A stretch of DNA of 64,000 nucleotides from Lepas anatifera (Eukaryota > Arthropoda > Thecostraca > Lepadidae). The stretch lies in the NCBI GenBank assembly GCA_034440635.1, contig JAOTON010001526.1:4597001-4661000 (forward strand). The letters run 5' to 3'. The position numbers and the translations under genes were made by a program. The notes below the pieces were generated by a model that ran no database searches, had not been told where the DNA came from, and saw only the letters and a program-made list of their open reading frames with translations. Shown here one piece after another: positions 5,279 through 55,294 of the stretch (position 1 is its first letter; each line of letters begins with the position of its first letter).

Positions 5279-7444
5279 TTACAATCATAAAGTTGGTACT
5301 TTGATTATAACCCATCGGTTAACACAACTTCCAGCTTATTTCCGTACTTGGTGGGCCCCTGACCCGGTGGGTCCCCTCCATTGCAAGCCCCTTCAGTTCC
5401 AGCACAGAAGGAAAAAATCACGCCCCTGGAGATGTAAATTATTATTCTGAGACTGTTTGGGTCGTTTTATTAAGCACGTTTCGGGTCGTTTTGTTAAGGA
5501 ATGCCCCAGTGCACAGTGATGCAGGAGGCCTGAAAAACGGGACGAAATTCATAGCTCAATAAATGGTAAGGATAGAACAATGATTTTGGGTTCAATTTGA
5601 AGCTCTCCTTCAGGCGGCTCAAACAAGCACACCAAATTTTGTTTTTACTCTTAACCCTCATTTTGCCAGATGGTCGATTCTAACCCCCTCTGAATTTTTT
5701 TCGCGATGGGAGAAAAACTACTCGGTTTAGCGCAATGCCGCGTGGCAAGTGCGAACCAACATCAATTTCATATATCTTGACGAAATTTCAATACAAGGTC
5801 AGGTCAGGTCACCGAGTTATAATGTCATTTCTAAGCCAATATAAAGCAATGCTGGTACTCAAAACAAGGTTGACAAAAGCCGGGAATAACTTAGCTTCTA
5901 GAGGAGTTAGATCGAGTTTCTATACACCATTCAAAAGCTCTTGTAGATGAAAATCTAGAGCGGACATCCATTTTGAGGTCAGGCCCATAACGAAAGCATC
6001 AGAGCACCCCTTGGCACCCATTGGGTGCACTACTTTATGCAGAGGCTATCCAGGGTTTTTAACGGTTCTGACAATCGCTGTAGCTTTATGAAATAATAAC
6101 ATAGTCGCAAAACTGACCATGCCATAAGCTGAATAAAGGTAATAGTAAGGGGCACAATTAATATTATTAATAATTTGATTTAATGATTGGATTTCCCCAG
6201 TTGTTAGCCGGAAAATATTGGAAGTAAAAATGCATTCTCACCTCGTATTTGTTAGCATTGGGAACACTTTTAGGGGAGTGTTGGGTAATAAAACATCATC
6301 AGAAGATAACCACTGTTAAGCTCTAACAGCCGGCAAACGCTACAAAATGTGCGACAAGCGACTTTCTTCAAAATCCAAGAAAGGTAGTATGTACAGCCGG
6401 TTCGATACTGATTGGTAGGTACTAGGCTGCGGTCGTTTTTGCGAAATATCTTTCAAGTGATGGTCCTTCCCGATAACATTGGTGCCTCACCTGCTGCGTT
6501 TTAACAGGATGCATGAACTGACGTGCGAAATGCTTCATAATGTCCAAAAATTGGAAGTAATTGAGAAAAGACACCGAAAATCGTCGGGATCGGTGAAAAC
6601 AGTCCATGATTTTTTTGTCCATAATTTTCCAAATTTACGTCTCATCCAGTTTGCAGGGTCCCAAATTTACAGAGCTCGTCAAAATTTCTTGCCAGAGACG
6701 AGACGTTTATGAGAAGAGTAATCGTTTTTAAGATATTTCTTAAACGAACTGACACTAATACCTACCAATCACTGGGGAACCGGGTGTATACATGACAGTC
6801 AGTTTAAACAGGGGACGGAGGCCAAAGATTAACAGAAAATCGGTTAAAATAACATTTTACAAACGGGAAGAATGCGAGCCAAAGTTAAAATCTGAATTTC
6901 CTTATTCAGGGCCTGATCTCGCTATGCCCTAATAAGTATTGAACTGACCCTAATACCTACTGAATTGAGACCAATACCTACATTCGTTGTCTCAATTCAC
7001 CCTCCTGCTTCTCAACTTTATTGCCTCCTTCAATTAGAGGCCGTCCATCAATAACGTTGCGCATATTTTGTGATTTTTTACCCCCTTCCCTCATTTGAAT
7101 GTGTCATTTGATGGGAGAAAGGAAATAATACACGGCGATTTGTGGATGCCGCGCGCGTCATTGCCACCAGCACCCGCCGACTACGGGTAGAACATGCGCT
7201 CACTAAAACTGTCATAACTTTTGTCAGCCGTCAGTTGCCGGCCTACGGATTCCACCAATGTAAAGAAGACACTTTCCACAATACATGGCATGATTTTCTA
7301 GCTGATCTTGCCTGTGCCTTTTTTCGCCAGTCTAAGGAAATATGATGTATGTTATAAATTTTAGTTCCGAACAGTGACGGATCCAAGGCGGGGCCCAGGG
7401 GGCCCGGCCCCCCCCTTAGCTCCGAAGCGCCTCAGCATAGCTTA

Positions 7445-7479
7445 GCTCATATCGGGCGCCGAAGGCGCCCGATATGAGC
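7445..7479. repeat. Perfect 16-bp-arm hairpin near the left end of element B
   Basis: Arms 7445-7460 and 7464-7479 (GCTCATATCGGGCGCC and its exact complement) are separated by GAA. It lies about 75 bp inside the left end of element B and contains GGCGCC, the motif that dominates the adjacent satellite. Confidence 0.8.
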
Positions 7480-7559
7480 GGCGCCCCTGTACCCATTTCG
7501 TGCGCCAAGGTGGTAGATACCACTTATTCCACTTGAATTAACACATAGTCCTTAAAACC

Positions 7560-10500
7560 ATGGCAAAGCGCCCCTGCCCGAACACTAGACGCCTTTACTG
7601 GTCTTTTGCGCCCCAGTAAAATGTTTAAGATGAAATTTAGAAAGCTAACAAAAGCGCCCCGGCAAAGAAAAGGCGTCACTAGATAGCAGAATTGCACCAT
7701 GGGGAACTAATGCACCCCTGAGTAGCCTAGGCGCCCCCTGGATGAAGCGCCCTGGGTAGCCTAGGCGCCCCCTGGATGAAGCGCCCTACGGATATCATAT
7801 GCGCCCTTGGCTAGGAAAGGCGCCCCTGGGCAGCAAAGGCAAATCTTCGTAACATAGGTGCCCTGGTCAGCATAAGCGCCCCTTAGATAGAAATAGGCGC
7901 TTTAGGAAAATAAAATGCTCACCTTGGGTAGAAAAGGCGCCCATTGATAGCCTAGGCGCCCACTGGAAAAAGCGCTCTACGGATGTCATATGCACCCATG
8001 GATAGCAAAGGCGCCCCTGGACAGCAAAGACAACCCTGGATAACACAAGTGCTGTGGACAGCAAAGGCGCCCCCGGGTACCAAAGGCGCCCCTAGGAAGG
8101 CACCCCTTCGATAGAAAAGCCACCTTTGGATAGCCTAGGCGCCCCCTGGATGAAGCGCCCTACGGATATCATATGCGCCCTTGGCTAGGAAAGGCGCCCC
8201 TGGGCAGCAAAGGCAAATCTTCGTAACATAGGTGCCCAGGACAGCATAAGCGCCCCTTAGATAGAAATATGCGCTTTAGGAAAATGAAATGCTCACCTTG
8301 AGTAGAAAAAGGCGCCCTTTGATAGCCTAGGCGCCCACTGGAAAAAGCGCCCTACGGATGTCATATGCACCCTTGGATAGCAAAGGCGCCCCTGGACAGC
8401 AAAGACAACCCTGGATAACACAAGTGCTGTGGACGGAAAAGGCGCCCCTGGGTAGCAAAGGCGCCCCTAGGAAGGCAAACCTTCAATAGAAAAGCCGCCT
8501 TTGGATAGCCTAGGCGCACCCTGGATGAAGTGCCCTACGGACACAATATGCGCCCTTGGCTAGGAAAGGCGCCCCTGGGCAGCAAAGGCAAATCTTCGTA
8601 ACATAGGTGCCCAGGACAGCATAAGCGCCCCTTAGATAGAAATATGCGCTTTAGGAAAATGAAATGCTCACCTTGAGTAGAAAAAGGCGCCCTTTGATAG
8701 CCTAGGCGCCCACTGGAAAAAGCGCCCTACGGATGTCATATGCACCCTTGGATAGCAAAGGCGCCCCTGGACAGCAAAGACAACCCTGGATAACACAAGT
8801 GCTGTGGAAAGCAAAGGCGCCCCTGGGTAGCAAAGGCGCCCCTGGGTAGCAAAGGCGCCCCTAGGAAGGCACCCCTTCGATAGAAAAGCCGCCTTTGGAT
8901 AGCCTAGGCGCCCCCTGGATGAAGCGCCCTACGGATATCATATGCGCCCTTGGCTAGGAAAGGCGCCCCTGGGCAGCAAAGGCAAATCTTGGCAACATAG
9001 GTGCCCTGGACAGCATAAGCGCCCCTTAAATAGAAATAGGCGCTTTAGGAAAATAAAATGCTCACCTTGGGTAGAAAAAGGCGCCCTTTGATAGCCTAGG
9101 CGCCCACTGGAAAAAGCGCTCTACGGATGTCATATGCACCCATGGATAGCAAAGGCGCCCCTGGACAGCAAAGACAACCCTGGATAACACAAGTGCTGTG
9201 GACAGAAAAGGCGCCCCTGGGTAGCAAAGGCGCCCCTAGGAAGGCAAACCTTCAATAGAAAAGCCACCTTTGGATAGCCTAGGCGCACCCTGGATGAAGT
9301 GTCCTACGGACACAATATGCGCCCTTGGCTAGGAAAGGCGCCCCTGGGCAGCAAAGGCAAATCTTCGTAACATAGGTGCCCAGGACAGCATAAGCGCCCC
9401 TTAGATAGAAATATGCGCTTTAGGAAAATGAAATGCTCACCTTGAGTAGAAAAAGGCGCCCTTTGATAGCCTAGGCGCCCACTGGAAAAAGCGCCCTACG
9501 GATGTCATATGCACCCTTGGATAGCAAAGGCGCCCCTGGACAGCAAAGACAACCCTGGATAACACAAGTGCTGTGGACGGAAAAGGCGCCCCTGGGTAGC
9601 AAAGGCGCCCCTAGGAAGGCAAACCTTCAATAGAAAAGCCGCCTTTGGATAGCCTAGGCGCACCCTGGATGAAGTGCCCTACGGACACAATATGCGCCCT
9701 TGGCTAGGAAAGGCGCCCCTGGGCAGCAAAGGCAAATCTTCGTAACATAGGTGCCCAGGACAGCATAAGCGCCCCTTAGATAGAAATATGCGCTTTAGGA
9801 AAATGAAATGCTCACCTTGAGTAGAAAAAGGCGCCCTTTGATAGCCTAGGCGCCCACTGGAAAAAGCGCCCTACGGATGTCATATGCACCCTTGGATAGC
9901 AAAGGCGCCCCTGGACAGCAAAGACAACCCTGGATAACACAAGTGCTGTGGAAAGCAAAGGCGCCCCTGGGTAGCAAAGGCGCCCCTGGGTAGCAAAGGC
10001 GCCCCTAGGAAGGCACCCCTTCGATAGAAAAGCCGCCTTTGGATAGCCTAGGCGCCCCCTGGATGAAGCACCCTACGGATATCATATGCGCCCTTGGCTA
10101 GGAAAGACGCCCCTGGGCAGCAAAGGCAAATCTTGGTAACATAGGTGCCCTGGACAGCATAAGCGCCCCTTAGATAGAAATAGGCGCTTTAGGAAAATAA
10201 AATGCTCACCTTGGGTAGAAAAAGGCGCCCTTTGATAGCCTAGGCGCCCACTGGAAAAAGCGCCCTACGGATGTCATATGCACCCTTGGATAGCAAAGGC
10301 GCCCCTGGACAGCAAAGACAACCCTGTATAACACAAGTGCTGTGGAGAGCTAAGGCGCCCCTGGGTAGCACAGGCGCCCCTAGGAAGGCACCCCTTCGAT
10401 TGAAAAGCCGCCTTTGGATAGCTTAGGCGCCCCCTGGATGAAGCGCCCTACGGTTATCATATGCGCCCTTGGCTAGGAAAGGCGCCCCTGGGCAGCAAAG

Positions 10501-11530
10501 GCAAATTTTGGTAACATAGGTGCCCTGGACAGCATAAGCGCCCCTTAGATAGAAGTAGGCGCTTTAGGAAAATAAAATGCTCACCTTGGGTAGAAAAAGG
10601 CGCCCTTTGATAGCCGAGGCGCCCACTGGAAAAAGCGCCCTACGGATGTCATATGCACCCTTGGATAGCAAAGGCGCCCCTGGACAGCAAAGACAACCCT
10701 GGATAACACAAGTGCTGTGGACAGCAAAGGCGCCCCTGGGTAGCAAAGGCGCCCCTAGGAAGGCAAACCTTGATAGAAAAGCCGCCTTTGGATAGCCTAG
10801 GCGCCCCCTGGATGAAGTGCCCTACGAATACAATATGCGCCCTTGGCTAGGAAAGGCGCCCCTGGGCAGCAAAGGCAAATTTTGGTAACATAGGTGCCCT
10901 GTACAGCATGAGCGCCCCTTAGATAGAAATATGCGCTTTAGGAAAATAAAATGCTCACCTTGGGTAGAAAAAGGCGCCCTTTGATAGCCTAGGCGCCCAC
11001 TGGAAAAAGCGCCCTACGGATGTCATATGCACCCTTGGATAGCAAAGGCGCCCCTGGACAGCAAAAACAACCCTGGATAACACAAGTGCTGTGGACAGCA
11101 AAGGCGCCCCTGGGTAGCAAAGGCGCCCCTAGGAAGGCACGCTTTCGATAAAAAAGCCACATTTGGATAGCCTAGGCGCCCCCTGGATGAAGCGCCCTAC
11201 GGATATCATATGCGCCCTTGGCTAGGAAAGGCGCCCCTGGGCAGCGAAGGCAAATCTTTGTAACATAGGTGCCCTGGTCAGCATAAGCGCCCCTTAGATA
11301 GAAATAGGCGCTTTAGGAAAATAAAATGCTCACCTTGGGTAAAAAAAGGCGCCCTTTGATAGCCTAGGCGCCCACTGGAAAAAGCGCCCTACGGATGTAA
11401 TATGCACCCTTGGATAGCAAAGGCACCCCTGGACAGCAAAGACAACCCTGGATAACACAAGTGCTGTGGACAGCAAAGGAGCCCCCTGGGTAGCAAAGGC
11501 GCCCCTAGGAAGGCACCCCTTCGGTAGTAA
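7560..11530. repeat. 375-bp satellite array with GGCGCC sub-repeats
   Basis: The junction motif GCGCCCCTAGGAAGG recurs at 8086, 8461, 8855, 9230, 9605, 9999, 10374, 10749, 11123 and 11499, giving spacings of 375, 394, 375, 375, 394, 375, 375, 374 and 376. The 394-bp spacing reflects one extra 19-bp unit (GGTAGCAAAGGCGCCCCTG). Each monomer is itself built from degenerate 19-35 bp units around GGCGCCC. Positions 8461-8895 and 9605-10039 look identical, which gives a three-monomer higher-order repeat of 1144 bp. Confidence 0.9.
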
Positions 11531-13500
11531 AGGCGCCTTTGGATAGCGTATGCGCCTCCTAGATAAAATAGGTGCCTGAAAAGGAAAATGAGCGCCCCAT
11601 TGGAATGTACAGGCTCCCCCTGTATAACATAGATGTCCCTTATCCATCTTCAGCTACCCTGGATTGGAGCAGCGCCCCTCAAGAGCAAAGGTGCCGCTGG
11701 ACAAAAAGGCGTCTCCGTATATCAAGGGCACTCCTAGATAATATATGCACCTCTCACACAGAAATAGGCACTTCAGGGAAAGTGAAAGGCGGCCTTTGGT
11801 TAGGGCGGCGCCCTTGGACAGCCTAGGCGCCCTTTGCATAAAGCGCCCTACAGATAGCATATGCGCCCTTGGATAGCAAAGGCGCCCCTGGACAGCAAAG
11901 TTAAACCTTCTTGAAATAGATTATCTGGACAGCATAGGCGGCCATGGATAAACTAGGCGTCTGAGAAAGAAAACAAGCGCTTCACCTGAGAGTACAGGCG
12001 CCCCCAGGATATCATAGGTGTCCCTTTCCATCTTCAGCTGCCCTACTGTCTATGGTTTGGCACACCTGTCCGACAGTCGCGCGCTCTGTTACAGGGCTCG
12101 AGCGCTCAATTTGAGCATGAACTGCCTTTAACCACATTTCATTAACCTATAACTGAAGGCTTAGTGCTCCATCGCTGCAACCGGGTGCCTTTTTCAGTAT
12201 GTGCGCCTCACTTCCGAGAACGTTGCCCTCACCAACCAGCAGTCCTCCCCGTTCAGCAGATGAGCGCCTCTTTTTGATAATTAGGCACTTTATTTCAGTG
12301 TTCGAGCGCCTTATTTCAGAATTTTTATTCTCCATCTATTTTGGGCTCCTCCTGGATTGCAGAGGCGCCCGCTCAAGTGCAAAGGCGCTCCTGGATAGAA
12401 AAGTGCGCCCTATGTTTGCAAAGGCGCTCCAAGATAGCATATGCGCCACTTAGATGGAAATAGGTAATCCAGGAAAGTAAAATGCTCCCTTTGGGTAGCA
12501 AGGGTGCCCCTTAACAGCGAAGGCAGCCCTAGATAACAAAGTTTCTCTGGACAGCATAGGTGCCCTTGGATAAACTGGTGCCCGGAAGAGGCAAATAGCG
12601 CCTTGCCGGAGACAAAAAGCACCCCAGGATAACGTAGGGGCATGTATTTCAATCATGTCTGTGATTGAAAAATACACCTAGAGAGCATATGCACCCCTGG
12701 ATAGAAAGACACCCCTGGGCAGTAACGGCGCCCCTGGAAAGCAATAGTGCGCCCCTGTGGAGAAAAAAGCCGCCTCCTGAATAACCTAGGCACCGCCCCC
12801 GAAATATCAGATGCCCGTGGATAGAACAGACTGCCTTGAATAAAACAGAGGCCCTGGAAAGCAAAGGCGCCCTTTGAGAGCATAAGCGTTCCTTAGCAAC
12901 AATATGGGCGCTACATGAGCTCAAGGTTCACGTGCACCTAAGCCCAATAATAGAGCAATCAATCGATGCCAAAGCACTCCTTAAAGCATAGGCGCCAAAC
13001 TTCCTAAGAAGTAAAGGCGCCTCTGGGTAGCAAAGGCGACCCTCGACAGTGGCGTAGGTATTCCTGAATAACAGCAGCGTCCCTTGATAAGAATAGCCCC
13101 AAGATGGCACAGGTACTCTGCTGATAGAAAAGCGCCCCTGAATATCAGAGGCACCCTCTGAATGAGGTGCCCATGGAGAGCATAAGGGCGCCCTATGTAT
13201 AGCAAATTGCCGCCCCCTAGATAGCCTAAGCGCCCTTTGCATAGGGTAGGCGCCACTTGGTAGTATAGGTTACCTTGAATAAAAATACGCCCCTCAATAC
13301 CAAGGTGAACCTGGATAAGAAAAAGCTCCCCTTGGGCACTGCGTATTAAAGGCACCCCCAGAACAGCAAAGATGCCCCTGGATAGCTAGGTCGCGTCCAT
13401 TGGGGAGCGAAGGCGCCCCTGGGTGGCACAGGTGCCTCATCGAAGCAAAGGCCCCTCCAGAGAGCATAGGTGTCCCTGATGAGCACAGTTACTCCTGGAC
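11531..13500. repeat. Decayed flank of the satellite array
   Basis: The same sub-repeat vocabulary (GATAGCAAAGGCGCCCCTGG, CATATGCGCC, GATAACATAGGTG) continues, but the 375-bp register is lost and units diverge progressively to about 13500. The interval 12060-12360 is the least repeat-like. This gradient of homogeneity from centre to edge is typical of arrays kept uniform only in their core. Confidence 0.75.
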
Positions 13501-13814
13501 AGCCCCTAAATGACGTTGCATAATGTTACGACACCTATTATAACGTATGCTATTACATCAAAGTTAAGGTTATTCAGTGTTTAGATCAAGGTCACGGGCC
13601 AAATTTAAAGGTCACTGGCCTGGATGATCAAGGCTTGATCAAAGTTCATTGGTAAGCTTGGGCGCAGCGTTAGTTATAGCGTAAATTAGACATAATATGT
13701 TGGGTTGTGCCGTAATAGGTCAATGACCTTGAAGGACCTTGACCCCACAATTTCAGACATTGTTTAGAGCCTTCCCTTTTGGCCTCAGCCCTGTTCTAGA
13801 GTATTCGCGCCCCG

Positions 13815-14615
13815 TTCCGGCCCGTTGGGGTGTGCTTGAACACCCCCTCGAGGTCTCCCAGTGGCAAGAAAAAGCGTCGGCGCGAAGCGACTCAGTACTT
13901 GTTAAACCTTATCATTGATCACTTCCGCAACTTTCCCTCAAAATTTAAGGTTGTGTCATCTCAGGTCAGGTCACCAGTACAGGTCAAGTGACCTCACCCC
14001 AAAAAATGTTTAAGTTGGCGTAAGTAAGAAAAGGGTGAATCTATCGAATTCAAACTTGTACCATATAATGGGCCCAAAAAGTACTAATAAATTTATTCCG
14101 GGATTTTTTCCATCGATGGCCTAGGGACAGGTACGAATCATGACCACTCCATTGAAAATGCATGGGGTAAAACGGAAATTTGCCGAACAATTGCTCTATG
14201 TCTGCAGACGCCGCTTGAAATACCTTCGGATTCCCCAAATTATAGTACCCTAGGCCTCTATATCGGTTCATGTTGCAAGTTTAGACATGTTACCTCTGAG
14301 AGTTCATCTGGGGCTTCCTGAGCAGGTTTTAAGACTTGGGTCAATGGCTTTGCAGGAAATGTTGATAAAACCCGTATTTTGATACCATTTTTTATTGTTA
14401 TTGTGAGTTGATTGATATGCATATTGACTATGCTAGGCTAGATGGTGGCCTTGACCTAACCTTAGGTCAGGTCATTTTTATGTTTTAACCTAGTATAGTC
14501 ACATTATACATTATTTAATGATTCGCCGTAACGAGAGGAAGCGAATTGTGCCTAAAATGATTCTAGCTCAACTCTGGCAGACGCTAGAGTATAGAGACAG
14601 AGACATGTTGTAAGC
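13815..14615. mobile_element. Remnant of a TTAA-type AGGTCA-rich element
   Basis: The sequence shares blocks with 18700-19260, 38270-38900 and 43960-44045: GTTGGGGTGTGCTTGAACAC-type stem, ACAGGTCAAGTGACC, CCATTGAAAATGCATGG and ATTCGCCGTAACGAGAGGAA. Neither end shows a clear TTAA, so it is a fragment. From 13500 to 13815 there are scattered GGTCA motifs but no definable element. Confidence 0.55.
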
Positions 14616-14619
14616 TTTG

Positions 14620-15370
14620 TCTCGGGGGAGGGACCCCAGCGCTGATCACGGGAAAAATCCCCGATGGTCCCCAGGGTCCCTCAGGGAGTCAGGAAATCTG
14701 GCGTGGGTGGAATCCGGTAGGAGGGATTTTGGGTCTCCAAAATCAGCTGAGGGGCCCGTGCTAGTTAAGGGGGCCCAGATAAGGGCCCCCAACGAGCTCA
14801 TTTGACCTCAGTGCCAACACAGGATTCTCAAGACCAGCGTGGGGTGCCTACCTCTTTAAACGGTTTCTAAATAAGCTCAGGGACTCAAAATTGACCCAGG
14901 GGTCCAATTTTCTATTCATGGGGCCCAGACACTCTGAGGGGACCCTGCAGAAGCTCAGAAGGCCCATAAAACTAATAGGGCCAGACTAGCTGGGTGCCTC
15001 GACGAACTATTGCCCAGATACGCACAACGGGCCCCAAACAAGCTGAAGGGATCTATATCAGTTAAACGAAAACGGTACCAACCCAGGGGACCCTGACCAG
15101 CTTAAGGGACACTAATCCAGCTTGGGGCTCAGAGCTCAGAGCTCCAACTTTTAGCTCAGTGGGCCCAGGACCTGTTGAGAGGGCCCTATATCAATAAAAG
15201 GGTCCCGAAAAGCTTAATAGGCTTCAGCGGCGACACATAGGTTTCAAGTTCAGTGTGAGGGCCTGGTTAACTAAAGCGGTCCCAGATTAGCTGAGGGGAC
15301 TCGATATAAACTCAGAGAAGTCACCAAAAACTCAGGGGCCCAGGCCCGCAGAGGTTCTGCGGCCTATGAG
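14620..15370. repeat. Degenerate minisatellite around AGCTCAGGGGCCC
   Basis: Units of about 25-35 bp carry variants of 'AGCTGAGGGGACTC' and 'AGCTCAGGGGCCC'. They are too divergent for a clean period. The same motif family recurs at 21250-21680. No coding potential is supported. Confidence 0.6.
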
Positions 15371-15696
15371 GCTCAGGTTAGCGTCAATCGGGTATTTCAG
15401 TATGGAGCCGTTAGCCAGGACAGCTGTGATAAGTGGAGGTGGTGGATACGACGCCTCAGTTTTCGCCATGACCGAAGATGACTGTATTATTTGCTCATCG
15501 TGCTTCAGATAGTGTCAGTGGGTGCTTTCAGCATTTTCTACCAAGGTACCAGTCGTTAGCTGGCCTGAAATATGCTTGATGGTAAACGTGAGCATGTCCT
15601 CACTAAGAGGAAGCTTTCATGAAAATAGGCATTTACAAATCCTTTTTTAAACCCGTTTTTCATTGACACTGACCGCCTTTTAGGTGGTAAATTGGC

Positions 15697-16210
15697 CAGT
15701 GGCGGAGCCAGGGGGGAGGGGGCAAAAAATGCATTCCCCAAACGGAAAAGCTCTGGACAAAACTATGTCTTCGCCCACCAAAGCGATCGACCTCCTTTTT
15801 CCCCTATTCCTTTTTAGTTTATGAGCAAGATTTTGGTGTTTCAACTCTCAATTTCAAACAGAACATAAGTTGATAAGATGTTCCCTGGCCTGTCCCCTCG
15901 AATCCCGAAATGTAAAAAAACACTGAAGATTATATATTCGGGCACAGCCCTTCATCAGAATCATGGAGTAAATATCAATAATTCTCACTTATAATATAGC
16001 CAGTCATAGTATAGCCAGCCTTGGATAGGGAGAAGTATCTCGAGCCCATAGTTTGTTCACCCCGTGACGTTTTTTTTAGCTTTTCGCCTCAAACCCAAAA
16101 TTCTACCGGCAAGTGATATTGGTAGCGCAGCTTTTTACTGCGTGACGTTTTTTTTTTGCTTTTCGACTTTGGTCTGCCCCTCCCAAACCGACCGGCTGGA
16201 TCCGCCACTG
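15697..16210. mobile_element. hAT-type element C nested in element B
   Basis: The ends CAGTGGCGGAGCCAGG and CTGGATCCGCCACTG are inverted, and a perfect 8-bp duplication AAATTGGC flanks them (15689-15696 and 16211-16218). The element is 514 bp and non-coding. It is the innermost member of a three-level nest. Confidence 0.9.
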
Positions 16211-16676
16211 AAATTGGCGCCCCTCAGGTTCGGCGCCCCCCAGGTTCGGCGCCCTCCGAGCCTGGGCCCCCTTAACGAAATCCTAGATCCGTCACTGGTT
16301 CCGAAACATATGTTTCTTAAAACAAACTCACTGCATTCTCTGGAGCAGTTAGAACCGTATTTTTGTAACCAGAAGGTAGCAAACATCCCAAGCTTCACGT
16401 TAGTATACGTTGTTTATAGATGGCGAGGTGTGAGCACCTGTTATTAACGTTTCAGATCACGCTATTATTTCCGGCCAGATACCCGTATTTAGCGAGGCAG
16501 AAAAAGTTTCAAGTTTCAGCTCTTGTGAAACCAATGTGGTACGCTAGAGGAAGAAAATAATGATGGTTTGCCGGGTTCCAAACAATGCTCAAACGCATCG
16601 CATGCATTTGATACCAATTCTAGAAAGTCATTTTTGGCATTTTCGTCCCGTTTTTTAGGCCCGCCGCATCACTGTG

Positions 16677-32421: not shown

Positions 32422-34147
32422 CAGTAATGCAGGAGACCAGAAGAACTCGGGATGGAGCCTCTAGCTAAAAAATTATTTACGATGGAACGATAATTTTTGC
32501 TTCAAATGAAGGCTTTTATTGGGTGGTTCAAGCAGGCACGCGCAATGATGATTTTCGATATTGGGCTTTCGACCAATGACCATTTAGTGATGTCAGTAAA
32601 ATATCATAATTGTATACTGGTGATAACCACTTTTAGTTAAGAACTCATGACGATGAATGATGATTTTTACTTTAATTGAAAGCTGGTGCTGAAATGGCTT
32701 GGATAAAAACAAAATATCACATTCTGATTCTAGATTTCGACAAATTATAATATAGTGATGCCATAAAAATATCACTACACGTTGGTAATGCCATAGGCGG
32801 ATCTAGGGGCAGGTGCCACCCATAGCCATAGGCGGATCCAGGGACAGGCAAAGAGGGCTCCCTGACCGACCCTCGGTGCCCCCTAAAATGGTCACGGCGC
32901 TCCAGTAAAGGGTCGATGGCGCCCCCTTGAAATATGTCGCTTCCCACCCCCCCCATGCGAAAATCGGCGCCCTGCGATAGGATTTCGCGCCCATCTGATA
33001 AGATTTTCCGGCCACAAGTGGTACCCCTTGGTCTGTATGGCAGCCCCACACCAGCAATGTGCCCCCCATCCCGGATCGGCGATCCTGGATCCGCCTATGG
33101 GTAACAGTTTTTTAATCAAGGACTTATAATGATAGAACATGAATGTTTAATTAACTAGAAAGCTTCGTTGAGTGTTTCAAACAAACATAAAACATACTTG
33201 TGTTTTGAATTCAGGTTTTGGCCGAATCATCCTTTGGTCACGCATAAAAACACCACAATTGTTATTTGCTGACGTTCATTTTCATTTCCACCACAGAGAC
33301 TATTGAGGGTATTTGATGGCTCTTATACTCAGTACAAGTGATTCAGATGACTACAAAGCCGGCAAATCTGACCAAAAGCAGTAAGCTGAGTAAAATTTGC
33401 GATGTATACGGAAACGTGTTTGATTTGGAGCATATCGACAACTGGAGCTAATGCCATGTTCCGTGCCATTACCTACACACATATGTAAAACCGCCAGTTT
33501 TTTCCTCCATAGTATTTAAATGGCGATAGCATCAGGCTGGCATGCAACGGCCCAAACCAAATTCACGATTTTAGTCATCCGCTAATTATCAGTAGGACTA
33601 AAAACGTCATAACTTGTTTTCGGTCGCCGGATGCCAACCTGACAATTCCACTATTTTAAGACTATAGAGGACCCTTCCTCAATTATTCGCAATAATTTTA
33701 AACTGATCTTGATAGTAAGTTTTTTGCTGGCTTTAGAAATCGTGCTTTGTGCGGGATTTTTATTTTCAAAACATACCGCTATTAAAATGTTCTCACTATG
33801 TTGCTGGGACAAGTTAGAACGGTATGTCTGTGACCAGAAGATCACAGAAATCTGAACGGTAACAACAGTATACTTTTACTATCGATGACTAGGTGTTAGT
33901 ATTTGCGATTCTTGTTTGTAACCATGTCATTGTTTTTTTTAGTAAGATTGCGGTATGTAGTGACATGGAAGAATTGTCATGTTTCAGCAGCCGTGAAATT
34001 GACTTAGCAGTTAGTACGGTAAATGAAGGAAGTAAGCACGGTTTGCCGTGTTCCAATGAACTCTTAAACGTATTATATGCATTTGATATCACTTCTAAAG
34101 TCACTTTCAAGGGTTTTATCCTGTTGTTAAGGCCCGCTGCATCACTA
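32422..34147. mobile_element. hAT-like element A (second copy) in the foldback's left arm
   Basis: The inverted ends CAGTAATGCAGGAGACC and (inverted) TAGTGATGCAGCGGGCC match those of the element at 5512-16676. The flanks share CAATAC in a degenerate 8-bp duplication (32414-32421 and 34148-34155). It aligns with the outer parts of 5512-16676 and gives the empty site for element B. A MITE lies inside at 32792-33099. No transposase frame is evident. Confidence 0.8.
32792..33099. mobile_element. GGATCC-type MITE
   Basis: The ends CATAGGCGGATCTAGG and CCTGGATCCGCCTATG are inverted, and the flanks begin with the same GGTAA (32784-32791 and 33100-33107, 5 of 8 matching). An internal second start CATAGGCGGATCCAGG at 32826 suggests a nested or duplicated end. 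It is the same family as 56901-57145, sharing a GGGGCGCC-rich interior. Confidence 0.75.
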
Positions 34148-34505
34148 TGCAATACTCCAAACTATACAATGAAACCTATAAACTATCAAATATGTTTAGC
34201 AAAAACTATCGATGTTATAGCCACACCCATTTATTGCGCTTCATAGAGCAAGAATGAAGCTTCACGTGTAAAACAGTACCAATTCACAGTCAATCGCAAG
34301 AAGCATTAATGATTCTCCCTTCATAACACCTCTAAGCCGCCGACGCCACCGGCACCGCCGGCCTATATTCCCAGTTTATATCTCAAGTGTTTAATACGGT
34401 GCAAACCTTTGAACCTCAACTATCAGTAGTTTCTGTTGCTCAGTGTCTTTTTGGTTAGGTTTTGATGCACCTTCTGGAACTTCTACATGCCCTGGCAGTT
34501 TTTTT

Positions 34506-35589: not shown

Positions 35590-36465
35590 AAATCAGCGAT
35601 TAAGAAGTTATAAATTGCTGATGTGTGCATTTTGTTGCTGATTTATCCGTGTTGGTATTTTTGACAAAATCACTGTTCATGGCTGCATAAATTCAAGTTA
35701 GCCTAAGTTGATGAAATAAACGCACACACTCTCAACACATTCCTTGAAGTGTTTTGTTTTTTTCACTAGGTTCGCCTAAAATACGCCGCTCGCCGTTGAG
35801 ATCAAGTTTATTGTTACATGGGTGAAGGAAGTTGCTTTTGATTTATACTAGATTGCTGCCAAATATGACCAAACTTGCATGTTCCAGCTGATCCTCTCAA
35901 AAACTTGGTAGACTCTCCTAGAACTAGGAAGGAAAGGGTGGTGACGTCATCAGGGGAGGACTAGATTTAGAAGAAAATTTGGTTGTACCCGTATTTAAAG
36001 TACCCTGGTTTGGATTGATTTCGGCACTCTTTCCGGTGACTCCCAGGCAAGGTGCGGTAGAAATTTCGGCGGGAGGTGTATCCCCATAGGCCTTGTATTA
36101 CGACCCTGTAATGGGACTGTAGCAAATGCAGCGGTTTAACCGCGTTTGCCCCCTCCCCTCCCCATTTTTCTTCATTTATTTCTTTTACTTTTTACTCATT
36201 ACCGCGAGCCTGCAGGTACGCGTGCTGATGTTCATCTTTCGCTTTCCGAGCGCGCTAGTGTTCGCCGCGGCTCAGGCTTTTCCCAACGCGGCTGCTTGCG
36301 TTTAGTGTCTCATACCTGTTATGCATCTGGAGCTTTACTTGTCTCTACGCTCACCACACAGCCTAGGTTTCCTCGAGCCGCGCTGCCGGCCTGCAAATGT
36401 TTAGTTCTGCAATACTTTTTTGTTGTGTGATATGGTTGTACGTACGAGTCCGGTTCTAACGGGAA
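35590..36465. other. No recognised feature
   Basis: A/T-rich sequence, then pyrimidine-rich from about 36150. No supported frame, repeat end or splice site. Confidence 0.5.
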
Positions 36466-36745
36466 CCGCCGGCGTCAGGCCAACCTAGCCGCGCCCGGCC
36501 GCGGACCCACCGGCGTCAGGCCAACCTAGCCGCGCCCGGCCGCGGACCCGCCGGCGTCAGGCCAACTTAGCCGCGCCCGGCCGCGGACCCGCCGGCGTCA
36601 GGCCAACCTAGCCGCGCCCGGCCGCGGACCCACCGGCGTCAGGCCAACCTAGCCGCGCCCGGCCGCGGACCCGCCGGCGTCAGGCCAACTTAGCCGCGCC
36701 CGGCCGCGGACCCGCCGGCGTCAGGCCAACCTAGCCGCGCCCGGC
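36466..36745. repeat. 41-bp GC-rich tandem array with a 123-bp higher-order unit
   Basis: GGCGTCAGGCCAAC starts at 36471, 36512, 36553, 36594, 36635, 36676 and 36717, a strict 41-bp period. Two diagnostic sites (aacCtag/aacTtag and cccAcc/cccGcc) repeat every third unit, so copies 1-3 equal copies 4-6, giving a 123-bp higher-order unit. Units look otherwise identical. Confidence 0.9.
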
Positions 36746-36784
36746 CGGTGTTTGTGCTGCGTGTGCAGACGGCCCGGGGCGGTG

Positions 36785-37584: not shown

Positions 37585-37798
37585 AGATAGACACCTCGGA
37601 GCTGGACGAGCAGCGGCGTTTCGTGGGATCCCTGCTGCTGCACCACATTCACCAGGTGCCCTACAACGCACACGAGGTGGCCGAGCTCAGGGTGCAAGCC
37701 TTCAACAGCATCGACAACTCCGAGAGCTTGTTCGTGGGCGCGGCCGTCTATCCGACGCTGGCGCTGTTTAACCACTCCTGCGACCCTGGCATAGTGCG
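37585..37798 (+). CDS. SMYD4: SMYD4-like exon 2, SET catalytic segment
   Basis: 214 bp encode EIDTSELDEQRRFVGSLLLH, then PYNAHEVAELRV, and end with YPTLALFNHSCDPGIVR. NHSCDP is the conserved SET-domain motif of SMYD methyltransferases that lines the S-adenosylmethionine site, and 'NAHEV' is typical of SMYD4. Entry phase 1 and exit phase 2 match the neighbours: the final CG joins the first G of exon 3 to make Arg, giving IVR-YFSGN without a gap. The donor is cg|gtccgt at 37799, a non-consensus site. It is followed at once by a tandem array that repeats the last part of this exon with its donor. Confidence 0.9.
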
Positions 37799-39664
37799 GT
37801 CCGTGCTACAACACTGATGCAGCACTCGATTTCGCTGTTTAACCCCTCCTGCGATCCTGGCATAGTTGCGGTCCGTGCTACAACACTGATGCATGATTTG
37901 ATTTCGCTGCTTAACCACTCCTGCGACCCTGGCAGAGTGCGGTCCGTGCTACAACACTGATGCAGCACTCGATTTTGCTGTTTAACCCCTCCTGCGACCC
38001 TGGCATAGTTGCGTTCCGTGCTACAACACTGATGCATGATTTGATTTCGCTGCTTAACCACTCCTGTGACCCTGGTATAGTGCGGTCCGTGCTACAACAC
38101 TGATGCACGACTTGATTTCACTGTTTAACCACTCCTGCGACCCTGGCATAGTGCGGCCCGTGCTACAACACTGATGCATGACTTGATTTCGCTGTTTAAC
38201 CTTCGCCCGGGTGGGGGTCTTTTTAGACCCCCTCGGGTTTTTCCGAAGTGACCAAAAAACGGCGGCGCGCAGCGCCGCTAAACTTGGTCTAGCTGTTCCT
38301 TCATCATTTTTACATCTTTCCTGAAAATTTTGGCTCAAGGTCATATCAGGTCAGGTCACCAGGTCAGGTGAAGTGACCTCACCCTCAAAAAATACTTAGG
38401 ACGGCATAACTAAAAGAAGGGTTAATCGATCAAGTTGAAACTCATACCACATCTTGGGTCCACCAGGAGCTACAATATTTGTTCCGGGATTTTTGATATT
38501 GGTGACCTAAGGTCATGTGCAGAGCATGACCTCCCCATTGACAATACATGGGGAAAATCACGAAATGAACTTTTCTCAGTAAGTATGGATGGAATCAACT
38601 TCAAACATCGGTTGCGACTTGTTCTTAGCCCATTTCTGAAGCTGATACCAAAATTTTTGACTTGTGACCTTTAAAAGGTCACCTTAGGTCAAATAAGCAT
38701 TTTTTGGTGTTTTTCCCTATAAATTTTGAATAAACTAAGATAGAGCTTTTATTTTGTCACCAAAGTGTTTGTATAGTCACTGGAAGTCAAATGATATACA
38801 TCATGACTATACCAGGTCAAGTTGGGTCAGACCGTTGACCTGGGTCAGGTCAAATTCTTAAATTTGACCTGGCATAGCAATATCATATATCATTCGATTC
38901 GTATTGACGAGAGGATTGCAATGGTGCATAAACTATGGCTGCATCTTGTTTGGTTTGGAAGATATTAGCGAAAAAGTAAACGCCCTTATGCATGGGTCGC
39001 TATGGACATTCCCAAGAATATGCCCAATATGTAGTGACCTGTAGCTCCCTAGGCTTTGACCTGACACGAAAATGAATGCCACTGTAATGAAAGTGCATCT
39101 CAAGAGCTTTCCAATGGTGTTAGAAAAATGTTTCTAGCTATCATAGTTTCTGAGATATAGGAGGTTTTCTTAGTACACCTCATATTAGCGATTTTGACCT
39201 ATTTTGACCTCTGGTGACCTTGATATTGACCTGACAAGAAAAATGACCGAAGTATTTTCGATATCATTTTCGAAGAGCTTTCGATTCCCGTTTTGTGCTT
39301 TTTTCTAGCTCTCTTAGTTTTTGAGATCGTGGGGGGTCTTTTTAGCCCCCCCCACCAGGGCGAAGGTGGCTCGTACCCGCCACCGGGGCAAGGGTTAACC
39401 ACTCCTGCGATCCTGGCATAGTGCGGTCCGTGCTACAACACTGATGCAGCACTCGATTTCGCTGTTTAACCACTCCTGCGACCCTGGCATAGTGCGGTCC
39501 GTGCTACAACACTGATGCATGACTTGATTTCGCTGTTTAACCACTCCTGCGACCCTGGCATAGTGCGATCCGTGCTACAACACTGATGCATGACTTGATT
39601 TCGCTGTTTAACCACTCCTGCGACCCTGGCATAGTGCGGTCCGTGCTACAACACTGATGCATGG
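37799..39664 (+). repeat. 71-bp tandem array copied from the exon 2 end and its splice donor
   Basis: Each unit holds TTTAACCACTCCTGCGACCC (coding for FNHSCDP in the exon) through CATAGTGCG|GTCCGTG and then the same 35 bp of intron. Donor-equivalent positions are 37799 (true), 37871, 37942, 38012 (GT lost), 38085, 38154 (GC), 39426, 39497, 39568 (AT) and 39639. The period is 71 bp on the right side and 69-73 bp on the left. A TTAA-type element (38200-39394) splits the array. Units do not keep one reading frame and are not expected to be coding. Confidence 0.9.
38200..39394. mobile_element. TTAA-type AGGTCA-rich element (copy 3), inside the exon 2 array
   Basis: It inserted in the unit sequence gtTTAAcc, leaving TTAA at 38196-38199 and 39395-39398. 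The ends CCTTCGCCCGGGTGGGGGT and CCCTTGCCCCGGTGGCGGG are imperfect inverted repeats. The interior has AGGTCA clusters (38335-38385, 38505-38530, 38665-38690, 38820-38870) and shares GGGATTTTTGATAT and ACATGGGGAAAA with copy 1. The neighbouring intact units give a clean empty site. Confidence 0.9.
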
Positions 39665-46365: not shown

Positions 46366-46425
46366 GCTTATCCAGGGGGCGCCTAGGCTATCCAAACGCG
46401 CCTTTACTAGGCGCCTTTGGATTCC
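46366..46425. repeat. Isolated fragment of the 375-bp satellite, inverted
   Basis: TCCAGGGGGCGCCTAGGCTA reads on the opposite strand as TAGCCTAGGCGCCCCCTGGA, the exact unit seen at about 8120-8145 in the satellite. It is joined directly to the GA microsatellite and lies 35-39 kb from the array. Confidence 0.8.
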
Positions 46426-46979
46426 GCACGAAAATTGTCACCCTTCTACCTGCCGCCTGCGCTGACGAGCCCGGTCTGTGTCAGAGGCTGTCGCAGGCCC
46501 CAGCGGGCCGAGGCACGGGCCGCCACTGCCCGGCGTGAATAAAAAGCGCGAACATCATCTCAATAAGTTTCGCTTTACGCAAAAAATTGAAAAGGTATCT
46601 ACTTTGTTTGTCGGGAATGATGCAGAATTGACACAGGAACAGCTACCCCGAGCATTATCATCGGGACGGTTAGTTGGACGTAGATATTCGCATTGAAACG
46701 GCGAGAGGAGAAAAAAACAGCACCGCCGGCAGGGCGCGGGTTAAGAACCAGCCTTGTGCTCGGAAAGCCATAAAAGATTTGTTTCTCTTCGGGAGAAACT
46801 TTTTCAAAGGAGAGTAGATTTTTGAATGCACACAGAGCAGCATAATTGTGCGTAGAAAAATTGTTGATCAGTGTTGATTATGCACCTCCAGTGGCAGCCC
46901 ATCGCGCAAAGCGCACGCTCACGTCACTTTTCCCCTTAGCGACCTCAACCTCAGTTGGACGGCGTCGTTTGTAACAGTC
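46426..46979. other. Intron 3 sequence without recognised features
   Basis: No supported gene or repeat. A cluster of GC-rich words at 46440-46540 is unexplained. Confidence 0.45.
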
Positions 46980-47772
46980 ACTTGGGGGTTGTACCAGTTC
47001 GGTGACGGCGTCGTTTGTTACAGTTCATTGGTGAGTTGTACCAGTTCGGTGAGTTTTACCAGTTCGGTGATGTCGTCGTTTGGACAGTTCATTGGTGAGT
47101 TGTACCAGTTCGGTGCCGGCGTCGTTTGTTACAGTAACTTGGTGAATTGTACCAGTTCGGTGATGTCGTCGTTTGGACAGTCCATTGGTGAGTTGTACCA
47201 GTTTGGTGCCGGCGTCGTTTGTTTCAGTACCTTGGTGAGTTGTACCAGTTCGGTGATGCCGTCGTTTGAACAGTCCATTGGTGATTTGTACCTGTTCGGT
47301 GACGACGTCGTTTGGTACAGTACCTCGGTGAGTTCTGCCGGTTCTGTCCCGTTGTCGTTTGTTACAGTACCTCGGCGAGTTGTACCGGTTCGGCGATGTC
47401 GTCCTTTGTTACAGTACCTTGGTGAGTGTGCTAGTTCGGTGAGTTGTACCAGTTCGGTGCCGGCGTCGTTTGTTACAGTACCTTGGTGAATTTTACCAGT
47501 TCGGTGATGTCGTTTGGACAGTTCATCGGTGAGTTGTACCAGTTTGGTGCCGGCGTCGTTTGTTACAGTAACTTGGTGAATTGTCAGTCGTGGCTTGAAC
47601 GCCGAAGCGGTCGGTTGTGCCGCCTCCAGCAAGGTCAGCGGCCGGTGGTGTGACCTGGCGTTCGGTCGCAGTATGTGGTGAGCCAAGGCCGCGTGAGCGA
47701 TACGGCGGGCTGGGCCCGGGTGTGTAAGATTACTGTGACTTGATGTACTACTTTTAGTTGAATTCGGTGATA

Positions 47773-48909
47773 ATGGCATCTGAAACAGACATAGGAGAGG
47801 ACTCAGTGTATACTGATGCCGTTACGTCTGGTGATGAAGTGATCAGTGGTGGTGTCAGTGGCCGGAAAAAACAGCTCTCCGTTCCTGATTTGATGCGCCG
47901 TATGGATGCAAGAAGAGCAAAGCGGTCTGCCCCAGGTGAGCAAGCTCAGCTACTTCAGTCCCCTCCGGACACGGCAGCACCGATTGCCAAACGCCGTTCA
48001 ACAAGGGCCTCACCTGGTGCTTCTGTGGTTCCTAGCGCGGAGCTATTAGAATCAATCCAACAAATGATTGACACTGCAACTGGAAAAGTGATTACGGCTT
48101 TCAATTCTAAATTTGAGGCACTTGAGCACCGCTTAGGGTTACTGGAAGCTGACGGCTTCAAAAAGGATCAAGAGATCCAAGTCCTTAAGGAGACGGTGAC
48201 ATCCCAAGAAAGAAGACTAGCTGAACTTGAAGAGCAAGTGGAAAGCGTTGATGCCAACGGAAGACTCTCATGTCTTATTGTATCTTGCAAAGACTTTGAA
48301 AGGAAGGTGAAAGATGAAAACGTTGAGAAGCGTGTGGTCGAGGCACTAAACAAACGCCTCCCAAACTTGAATCTAGTCAACACAGATTTAAGCACGGCTC
48401 ACCGTCTTTCATCTGACAACAAAATCATCATGAAATTTGTTAGAAGATCAGTCAGAGACAGAGTGTATGAGAGCCGTTTCGACCTCATGACCTCCGGAAC
48501 AGCTGGAGGCTCACGAGATAGTCAGGGTGTCGGTACCGTACGTCACATGGCGCCTCTCTATATCGGCGAGTGTCTAACTGCTGCGAACAATGGCATCTAC
48601 CAGGAGCTCCTCCAAGCCAAGAAGCGAGAGAACGGTGCTCTGATCTCATCTGTCTTTACAAGGCGAGGGGTGGTATGGTGCAAGACTGAGCGTGGTGGAA
48701 CCAACATTCGTGTCCCTGATCAGCGTCACCTGCGACGGGTGCTTGGGGGCGCGCGTTTCCCCCTCCATCATCGCGTCCCGGCGGCCGCTCTCGTGTTGGT
48801 CTCAACGTCGCGGCTGGCGACGGCGTCGTGGGATCTCGTCTGCGGCCGCGTGAGGTCTCCCGCCCGGGTGCTCCTATCCCCTCGGCGGACTTCTCTCGCC
48901 GGCCGGTGA
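47773..48909 (+). CDS. LINE ORF1 protein (coiled coil plus RRM-like)
   Basis: The frame is open from 47758, but the first ATG is at 47773. An acidic/basic N-terminus is followed by a coiled coil at about residues 95-170 (LEHRLGLLEADG, LKETVTSQERRLAELEEQVE) and a domain resembling the L1/Tx1 ORF1 RNA-binding region (LSCLIVSCKDF, STAHRLSSDNKIIMKF, LYIGECLTAANNGIYQELLQ). This protein packages the LINE RNA. The last 60 residues turn Arg/Ala/Pro-rich without similarity to the rest, so the true C-terminus may have been lost by a frameshift near 48740. Confidence 0.8.
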   Translation: MASETDIGEDSVYTDAVTSGDEVISGGVSGRKKQLSVPDLMRRMDARRAKRSAPGEQAQLLQSPPDTAAPIAKRRSTRASPGASVVPSAELLESIQQMIDTATGKVITAFNSKFEALEHRLGLLEADGFKKDQEIQVLKETVTSQERRLAELEEQVESVDANGRLSCLIVSCKDFERKVKDENVEKRVVEALNKRLPNLNLVNTDLSTAHRLSSDNKIIMKFVRRSVRDRVYESRFDLMTSGTAGGSRDSQGVGTVRHMAPLYIGECLTAANNGIYQELLQAKKRENGALISSVFTRRGVVWCKTERGGTNIRVPDQRHLRRVLGGARFPLHHRVPAAALVLVSTSRLATASWDLVCGRVRSPARVLLSPRRTSLAGR

Positions 48910-50520
48910 CGTCTGCATCGGGTTCAACCGGAGCACGCCCAAAGTCTCCTGGTCTCTCCACACACGGCGGCGCTCCCCACGCCCCTGCTCGTGATGGATC
49001 TGCGGTGGATAGTGCGGCGGCACGGATGGTAACGTAGGACCGATAACCGTAGCCTTTCTCCTGCCGTACACGGTTATTCCTGACGAGTGAAGGCCTATAT
49101 CAAAGTCCAGAATGGAAATGCGGAACGACCCATGTATTTGTGTTGGGTCCAATGCAAATAGTATGTATTCTGTGCCAAACGTAAATGAATGCGGGTCATT
49201 AATTCTGCATTTATCTATACATTCCTGCCCGCAAACTTGTTCACTCAGCTGTAGGTATTGCCAAGAACCGGGTCATTTAACAAGATTTCGAAATGCCCAT
49301 TTTTGGCATTGCCTTTCCCGCATTTGAGAAGTGACTTCGCTTACCCTTACAGCTAAGTGCTCACATAACAGATAAGCTGTCTAAGGAGCTGTGATAACTT
49401 GGTGTACTCTTTTCAAACATACGCGGGTGCCACGCGGGCGGCCGGGGCTGCCCTTGTCGCGGCCACTTCAACGAGCTGCCACCCTCCCTGAGCCTGCTGG
49501 TGCTGTTTGTGCCGTTGACGACATCAGCGGCGGCCGGCCGCGGCGGGGCGGCCTCGGTCGCAGCTCCGACGGTGACGAAAGGTTTGAACTGAATATGTAT
49601 CGTGTTAATGTATGTTTCAAGTGTAGCTATTTTTCTAGTATCTAGAACTATTGGTCCAACACCACACGGGTCAATCCATCCATATGCGGCGAGGAACGTG
49701 TAATGTTAAACAATGTCTCACAGCACCGCGGATCCAAAAATGGTATGTTATAAGGAATGCGTCCATGAGGGTTGTGGATACTTATGAATATTTGTCTGGC
49801 TGAGCGCAAGGTTGTCACCAGTTTCACCAGGTGCGGCTCGCCACCATCAGCATGCTGTGTTGGTATCTGCCTTCACTGCGGGCGGCCCTCACCACGGCCG
49901 AGCCGGTCGATGGCGCCTTCTGTACAGCTTCAGCTCATATCTGATCGGACCAAATCTTCAGACCGGCGGCGGTGGGGGTGGGCCGCCGTGGAAACCCCAT
50001 GGTTTGTTGTATGTATTAGTTATGATTATTCATGTTGATCGTATAGTCAGCAATTGTTGACTTGAAACCGTACTGCTCGTATATCTTATCTTTGGTGTAT
50101 ATTCAACAGTATTTCAGGATACACAGTGCCGGGCCAGTACACCCGGGCCCCGGCAGCACGCCTGCTGTGTCGACCACTAGCGCCATCTAAACGCTCATGT
50201 GTTCACGGCGTAAAGCGAGATGTCCGACAAATGTCAGTACTATCAATACTTCCGTGGACACTAGATGTCGCTTGCAGTTGAGTGTCAGCATTCATATTAC
50301 GTTTTGTATTATATTTCACAGGTGCATCCCTCACCTCACTTATCGCGTTTCAGTTCCGAGATCTCTTCCAGACTTACGGTATCGCTCACAACACGATGCA
50401 CACCATGTACAGTTGGAACAGAACCAACAACCAAGCTGGTTAAGAGTGGCTAGTAAGGCCTCTATTACTTTGCTTAAGATTCTTTCGTAAATTCCGCAAT
50501 CACGAATATTCCCTAATTAA
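48910..50520 (+). other. Inter-ORF region of the LINE
   Basis: 1.6 kb between ORF1 and ORF2, unusually long for this group. At about 49245-49310 a short frame contains CRYCQEPGHL, a zinc-knuckle-like CxxCxxxxH. This suggests that ORF1 or the N-terminal part of ORF2 once extended here, or that a foreign fragment was inserted. Two G/C-rich islands lie at 49430-49580 and 49850-50000. Confidence 0.5.
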
Positions 50521-53500: not shown

Positions 53501-54299
53501 GGATTTATTTAATTCTGAAAATAGAAATGTACTGTCACGAGAAGAAATTAGGCGTAATTACCGCATTTCAATGAACTTTTTGTGTTATGAGGCGTTAATT
53601 AGAAGTTTGCCTGACGAAGTGCGTAGCTCTGGCATGCAAACTCGCTTCGAGAGACCAAATATCCCTTACAGGCTCAATGTTTTCAAAAGCAAGCATCACA
53701 AGTTAAACCGGTATTGCTATAAGCAGTTTGTAATCTCGAAAGTTAGAAGCAATAACAATAATTCATTAGAGAAAAAATGGGAAAGAGATATAGGATTTTT
53801 TCAAACTGGAACTATGTTAGAACTAAAACAGGCTACGAAGGCTACGTCTCTGCTTTATCTCCACTATCGTATAACTAACAGAATAATCACTACAAACAGA
53901 TTTTTACATACAATAGGAATATCAAATACATATGTTTGCACTCTGTGTACTAACAATATAGAAACGATAACTCACCTGTTTTGGCATTGCAGAATCGTAC
54001 AAAAATTTATCCATGATATAAAAAACAATTTGGAACGCAGGTATGGTATACCGCTTCCAAGGACCGCACAGTCCTGGTTCTTTTTACATGAGTTAAGTCC
54101 GATCCAGAAATTAATCGTCACTTTAGCAAAATCGGTCATCAACAAAGCTCGTAATAACACTGTGAAACCCGAAGTAACTTACTTTATGAACATTCTAAAA
54201 ACAGAGGCCGAAAAAGAGCAAACTGCAAGCAGACTAAAAGGTAACTCGGAATTTTTCGAGAAAAAATGGGGAGGCCTCATTCAGATATTGAAAAAATAG
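50521..54299 (+). pseudogene. LINE ORF2: endonuclease and reverse transcriptase, one frame break
   Basis: Frame 1 (50521-52083) carries an apurinic-type endonuclease: SVKCRGLG (residues 8-15), QDTH (38-41), YGPN (111-114), GGDFN (139-143), RLDMFFID and TDHDML near residue 230, followed by the start of the RT (KKGKTPGSNGFPVEFF). The reading then moves to another frame at about 52020. Frame 3, open to 54299, has IPKG, WRPISLLN, motif A (ADFEAAFE), RGIRQGDP, motif C (YADD at 52664-52675) and a C-terminal CTLC...HLFWHC zinc motif near 53940-53990. The one-base frame change splits the RT. The usual catalytic Asn near residue 10 is Lys. Motif order and words place it in the Tx1/L1 group; it copies itself by target-primed reverse transcription. 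Confidence 0.85.
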
Positions 54300-55180: not shown

Positions 55181-55294
55181 TATCTGCGTGAGCGGTACGA
55201 GTTCGAGTGCAAGTGCAAGCCATGCATTGAGGTGTGGCCAACATTCGCCGAGATGGACAACACCGTCTGGAAGTTCAAATGCCAGACTTGCAAG
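55181..55294 (+). CDS. SMYD4: SMYD4-like exon 4, post-SET cysteine cluster
   Basis: 114 bp, exactly 38 codons, phase 0 at both ends: YLRERYEFECKCKPCIEVWP, then FAEMDNTVWKFKCQTCK. The CxCxxC (ECKCKPC) is the post-SET zinc ligand cluster that closes the active site in SMYD proteins, and 'FKCQTC' starts the second Cys pair seen in SMYD4. The acceptor tttgttacag (55171-55180) is shared with the upstream minisatellite units. The donor aag|gtgggt is at 55295. Nothing is broken in this copy. Confidence 0.9.

Follow-up and report, generated by a model that had tools for sequence, protein, structure and literature searches.

A large hAT-like transposon family of Lepas anatifera that very probably carries a satellite array from site to site

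Introduction

It has long been asked how satellite DNA arrives at new chromosomal sites and at what pace its arrays expand and contract, and both processes are difficult to date. The closest described systems are transposons that contain tandem repeats. In Drosophila virilis, the foldback transposon Tetris has internal repeats that vary in number and feed satellite arrays (PMC4079207). In Xenopus, tandem repeats lie inside MITEs, namely Xmix, which carries the Xstir repeat, and miDNA4 (PMC9659126, PMC12628747).

Here we analyse a 64-kb window of the Lepas anatifera genome (64,000 nucleotides of contig JAOTON010001526.1) in which an 8.9-kb element surrounds a satellite with a 375-bp monomer. 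We conclude, with high confidence, that the stretch at 7372-16297 is one copy of a large, non-autonomous, hAT-type cut-and-paste family whose interior is mostly tandem array, and that this array is carried by transposition.

Organization of the window element

The coordinates of the element and its parts are collected in Table 1. Short terminal inverted repeats, CAGTGACGGATC, are found at both ends of the element, with the right end reading GATCCGTCACTG on the forward strand. The 8-bp duplication that brackets them, GTTCCGAA, occurs only twice in the window, at 7364 and 16298. Inverted ends and duplication are exact, and the borders claimed in an earlier sequence-only reading of the window are correct to the base. 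When the element is removed and its flanks are joined with one duplication kept, the joined sequence aligns across the junction to a second place in the window with 66% identity (E 8e-27). The sequence-only reading had named an uninterrupted paralogue at 32422-34147, with a putative border at 32422, as the empty site; a diverged, elementless paralogue is indeed present, but the paralogue of that reading is itself interrupted by a small element at 32792-33099. This 308-bp element, inside the flank paralogue, has the same CATAGGCGGATC ends and a similar GGCGCC-type interior.

Table 1 Features of the window element and its empty site. L021-L040 are 20 other copies from the same assembly (see text).
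Feature	Position	Strand	Remarks
Whole transposon copy	7372..16297	+	8926 bp; inverted termini bracketed by an exact 8-bp duplication
Target-site duplication GTTCCGAA, left copy	7364..7371	+	Exact match to 16298-16305
Target-site duplication GTTCCGAA, right copy	16298..16305	+	
Left end, TIR CAGTGACGGATCCAAGG and subterminal region	7372..7714	+	Present in 17/20 copies L021-L040, 90-99% identity
Hairpin	7445..7479	+	GAA loop between two perfect 16-base arms
375-bp satellite array, about 10 monomers	7753..11564	+	375 bp x 10.1, 93% matches
Degenerate ladder, 19-20 bp period, old array edge	11565..13500	+	GGCGCC-type motif as in array; autocorrelation
Middle part without recognised gene	13501..15696	+	Includes old dispersed repeat at about 13826-14589
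Nested 514-bp element, TIR CAGTGGCGGAGCCAGG, exact duplication AAATTGGC	15697..16210	+	Second hAT-like element, in right end; new relative to the sequence-only reading
Right end, short GGCGCCCC-CAGGTTC repeats and TIR	16211..16297	+	Tandem repeat 16216-16254, period 16
Diverged paralogue of the flanks without the element (empty site)	33597..34151	+	Alignment of joined flanks

The array has internal periods of 192 and 19 bp and contains a duplicated block of about 1144 bp. Self-identity of the array core peaks at lags of 375, 394, 19 and 192, that of a single monomer at 192 and that of the adjoining ladder at 19, where the autocorrelation reaches 0.37 compared with a mean shuffle maximum of 0.284. 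Within 7372-13500, GCGCC motifs are most often spaced 19 bases apart (33 times) and next most often 56 bases (19 times), and 86 of the 107 GGCGCC sites in the window fall in the element. The period is weaker in the left edge (7500-7752) and in a small element at 56901-57145, the best lags of both being near or slightly above the mean shuffle maximum. Because the periods are nested (19, 192, 375), we infer that the array grew in nested steps from the 19-bp unit; it would have started from the element's own GGCGCC-containing, subterminal-type repeats of about 19 bp and passed through 192-bp and then 375-bp units. The roughly 6 kb of satellite claimed for the element holds only if the ladder and the left edge are included, but the 375-bp core alone is confined to the array interval of Table 1.

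The hairpin near the left end had been put forward as a possible seed of the array, a proposal that finds no support here. A hairpin with at least 15 paired bases is present in 17 of 24 aligned left ends, is deleted in one copy that keeps its monomers (L045), and has little in common with the monomer beyond GGCGCC.

The dispersed repeat in the middle part has matches of 72-87% identity in unrelated flanks. Seven open reading frames of at least 90 amino acids overlap the element, and they yielded 0 Pfam families at E<=0.1, with no transposase recognised among them; an Rfam scan of the whole window returned 0 matches.

Several other repeats lie in the window. A 245-bp element at 56901-57145, with ends CATAGGCGGATCCAGG and CCTGGATCCGCCTATG, a duplication matching at 7/8 positions and internal CAGGGGGCGCC repeats of about 20 bp, is possibly a small cousin of the large element, and a possible 389-bp element at 62578-62966 has an end of the CAGCGGCGGATCC type and flanking octamers that match at 6/8 positions. 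The same tandem repeat of about 47 bp is found at 46958-47584 and 54626-55205, flanking a LINE-like element with open reading frames at 47758-54299. Arrays with units of about 14-16 bp at 59777-60249 and 63091-63402 are apparent reverse complements of each other (AAAGTTCGTAAGCA, TACGAACTTTTTCC) and are perhaps foldback-like arms. One 71-bp unit forms separate arrays at 37762-38201, which also has a 143-bp period, and at 39395-39663. A GC-rich tandem repeat of 41 bp occupies 36462-36747 (7 copies, 96% matches).

Superfamily and source of transposase

The ends of the element begin CAGTG, which we take to fit the CAGNG-like hAT consensus. Together with the 8-bp duplications, these ends make hAT-type the best reading of the element; the assignment, already made by the sequence-only reading, fits both features, although no transposase is recognised inside. 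The assembly itself is rich in hAT dimerisation domains: 150 were scored of 1241 candidates, and all 150 lie above the Pfam cut-off. One of them belongs to an 845-aa open reading frame (L053, contig C1676) with CCTGGCCCCGCCACTG downstream, the complement of which, CAGTGGCGGGGCCAGG, matches the end of the nested element at 15/16 bases and the ends of the 7372-16297 element at 12/16. Positions 1-410 of L053 form the end of a hAT transposase element, with a terminal motif that closely resembles the nested element's. Two other hAT transposase neighbourhoods contain no similar end within 871 bases (1/3 neighbourhoods positive), and no autonomous partner with the same ends was found. From these comparisons of sequence a hAT source is likely, and the ends of the family would be acted on by a hAT transposase supplied from another locus.

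It is improbable that the element instead belongs to another superfamily that makes 8-bp target duplications. Duplications of about 8 bp are also made by P, Merlin and Zisupton elements, and such an origin would agree with the want of a transposase inside the element and with the 18 target duplications seen in the family, which share no strong consensus, where hAT subgroups typically have a base preference at the target site. It sits poorly with the CAGTG ends, given the hAT consensus, and with a hAT-domain open reading frame in the same genome whose CAGTGGCGGGGCCAGG end resembles both the nested element and, less closely, the large one.

Copies of the family in the assembly

We searched the window's own assembly (1.04 Gb, 2126 contigs) for landmarks of the element. 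Genome-wide exact matches numbered 980 for the family's 20-base left end, 779 for an inner left marker (22 bases, at 7555), 817 for a right-of-array marker (22 bases, at 12412) and 2958 for a monomer marker, with 0 matches for the reversed control of each. These 980 do not include the window copy, whose own left end diverges beyond base 17. At about 7 kb for each of the 980, the family would make up, as a rough estimate, some 0.7% of the assembly. Among the first 100 listed left ends, 55 are accompanied by an exact inner marker and 45 are not. Other families sharing the left end were considered as an origin of the latter, but six of the 45 (L041-L046) all proved to be the same family (6/6).

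A 598-base right-end query scored 40 places of 5653 candidates at 93-100% identity, the window included. The set examined closely, L021-L040, comprises 10 kb around each of the 20 best of the other 39 matches, and is biased towards close relatives and young copies because its members were chosen as best right-end matches. Both ends are seen in 17 of these 20 stretches, the left end not being seen in L027, L030 and L035. The left end is in two pieces in L028 and starts at base 39 in L031; it is also present in L041-L050. Copies with both ends measure 5905 to 9082 bp, and all 18 of them (the 17 and the window) are bracketed by exact 8-bp duplications, all different. Their flanks are unrelated, with 0 of 153 copy pairs alike on either side. 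The position of the nested element falls within the stretches read of L021-L040 and L046; it is present in all 20 copies L021-L040, its first ~21 bases unmatched in some.

Further copies extend this picture. L047-L050, older copies drawn from the left-marker list, carry arrays of irregular monomers. The short copy L046 measures only 564 bp: its diverged left end is followed by about 105 bp from a single monomer, then by the final bases of the middle part and by the right end. Its site lacks the nested element and its flanking octamers match at 6/8 positions. L046 may have arisen by an old internal deletion, or may stand near an ancestral short form.

A left end could be paired with 88 of the 99 listed right-of-array markers, and 11/99 lack an exact left-end landmark. 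The median distance from left end to marker is 3279 bp, compared with 5040 in the window, and exceeds the window's in 8 of the 88. We do not take these lengths as monomer counts because some include inserted DNA or mispairings; in at least one of the 8 (C34:84482, L048), the monomers end at about 2.0 kb.

The monomer was followed through the first 100 listed of its 2958 marker matches. These lie on contigs C3 to C70 and fall into 36 clusters; of the 97 monomers compared below, 84 contain the marker. Both element landmarks accompany 24 clusters, the left alone 10, the right alone 1, and neither 1. This last cluster and the unpaired right-of-array markers may reflect broken copies or landmarks altered by mutation. 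The trait of a classical satellite, long arrays that lie apart from mobile elements, was not seen among the 36 sampled clusters, in an assembly in which collapsed or unassembled arrays, as in heterochromatin, are invisible. The sequence-only reading had seen in the element, on condition that the array moved with it, a route for seeding satellite DNA at new sites; with 35 of 36 sampled clusters adjoining an element landmark, seeding of free satellite arrays is not supported. In the window, a lone monomer-like piece of about 44 bp lies on the minus strand at 46366-46409, beside an AG microsatellite and far from element ends.

Movement of the array with the element

All 17 fetched copies with both ends have an array between them, as does the window, and the number of monomers between the same two junctions ranges from 3 (L021, L022 and L031) to 10 (window). 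A monomer or a piece of one is present in 29 of the 31 copies read in part or whole; the remaining two, L027 and L035, show the family's right part, and the stretch read contains neither an array nor a left end. The sequence-only reading had pointed to other copies in the genome as the place to look and had held that unrelated interiors behind the same ends would speak against it. The genome search returned arrays of 3 to 10 monomers and, in the short copy L046, a piece, and no unrelated interiors were seen.

We then compared 97 monomers of at least 340 bases, one of which is an out-of-phase piece from the window; 13 shorter matches were dropped, of which 12 were out of phase and the other was a genuine partial monomer from L024. 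The nearest monomer lies in another copy for 88 of the 97 and in the same copy for 7, with 2 ties. Nearest neighbours share their rank from an end of the array in 70 of the 97 cases, compared with a permutation mean of 25.6 and a maximum of 45 in 1000 permutations. When clustered at 1.6-2.5%, the monomer types succeed one another consistently within the arrays, for example H I J K L J M E F G in the window, H I H I M E F G in L025 and B F G in L021. Monomers are closer across copies than within them and their order is conserved; the array therefore arrived at each site inside the element. Homologous ends and independent insertions, together with these 88 monomers, bear out the earlier suggestion that the array moved with the element. 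The array is an integral part of the element, delivered to each new site by transposition.

A very improbable alternative is that the element inserted with one monomer or with no array and each copy then built up its own array, so that the copies resemble each other only as their seeds did. Several observations speak for it. Copies less than 1.2% apart range from 3 to 10 monomers: the window, L021-L026, L028 and L029, whose unique right parts are 0.5-1.1% apart, have 10, 3, 3, 6, 5, 8, 5, 7 and 5. Identical neighbouring blocks show local growth in two copies: one pair of identical monomers occupies adjacent blocks in L025, and another pair lies about 1144 bases apart in the window. The short copy L046 with its monomer piece, and other copies with arrays of a 192-bp unit, can also be read in favour of separate growth. 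However, separate growth predicts that the nearest monomers lie in the same copy, which is untrue for 88 of 97, and the order of the array is conserved. It is contradicted for the copies examined and could hold for other, older lineages.

Satellites often attract insertions, but the notion of an ordinary satellite locus hit on both sides by transposon halves, or of a segmental duplication of transposon plus satellite, retains next to no probability and is already refuted for the copies in hand by the matched ends and exact, different duplications of 18/18 copies, the absence of any alike pair of flanks (0/153) and the 35/36 sampled monomer clusters that adjoin element landmarks.

Turnover of array size

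In some lineages the array changes rapidly in size and unit, and in others it is stable: L033, L034, L039 and L040, which are 0.4-0.8% apart, have 5 monomers each, and in some other copies the monomer spacing is 192 or about 345-356 bases rather than 375. The sequence-only reading had set movement with the element against growth after insertion, and both apply; the array came with each insertion, and its size changed afterwards or during transposition. Between and after jumps, the number of monomers rises and falls by whole monomers or blocks. The machinery may be unequal exchange, slippage during replication or faulty repair of the gap left by excision.

Implications

Each array of the family is framed by unique element sequence and derives from a single insertion at a known point, so the relatedness of copies serves as a clock and the array as the outcome. 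One assembly contains hundreds of copies, which makes it possible to measure how fast monomers are gained and lost, and the family offers a natural experiment on satellite turnover. It also shows that a satellite can be maintained in dispersed form by a transposon with no escape of that satellite being seen.

More speculatively, and on balance doubtfully, the array may be a working part of the element and not cargo. The GGCGCC repeats of about 19 bp might offer the transposase additional subterminal sites to bind, such that elements with arrays of suitable length transpose better and transposition itself drives the growth of the satellite. If true, this would explain the monomers or monomer pieces in 29/31 copies, the confinement of the sampled satellite to elements, and the CAGGGGGCGCC repeats of about 20 bp that are also found in small elements of the window whose ends are similar.

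Comparison with known systems

Like the window element, Tetris is a non-autonomous DNA transposon that has no recognised transposase and in which amplification takes place inside the element (PMC4079207). The likeness extends to internal tandem repeats of variable number (TIR-220, about 220 bp) and to duplications of 8-10 bp (PMC4079207). Tetris differs in being foldback-like, with its repeats within the terminal inverted repeats, whereas the window element has one central array between hAT-like ends (PMC4079207). Three structurally complete copies of Tetris are reported, for which its authors suggest Mutator, compared with hundreds of copies of the window family (PMC4079207). Tetris repeats also form long satellite arrays in beta-heterochromatin, whereas no free array of the window family is seen in the assembly (PMC4079207).

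In Xmix with Xstir and in miDNA4, repeats likewise ride a non-autonomous DNA transposon and change in number within it, but these are miniature elements, with miDNA4 listed as Tc1-mariner (PMC9659126, PMC12628747). By comparison, both-ended copies of the window family are 5.9-9.1 kb long, have a 375-bp monomer with three nested periods, and make 8-bp duplications. Helitrons are not known to have terminal inverted repeats or target duplications of the kind found in the window element. The Helitron or DINE elements of Drosophila and oysters resemble the family in that arrays of varying length occupy the centre of a mobile element, and differ in that their arrays are reported both within and outside the elements (PMC9659126, PMC12628747). 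Helitrons are also thought to move by rolling circle, unlike the cut-and-paste window family (PMC9659126, PMC12628747).

We found no hAT-type element of this build in the open-access literature, which is weak evidence of absence. Of the traits of transposons with internal satellites, repeats between both ends and a variable repeat number are present in the family, and free arrays such as those of Tetris were not encountered among the sampled clusters. The principle of a transposon with internal tandem repeats is thus already known, and the window element is a large, hAT-type variant of it; its interest rests less on a new principle than on arrays that are replicate and datable.
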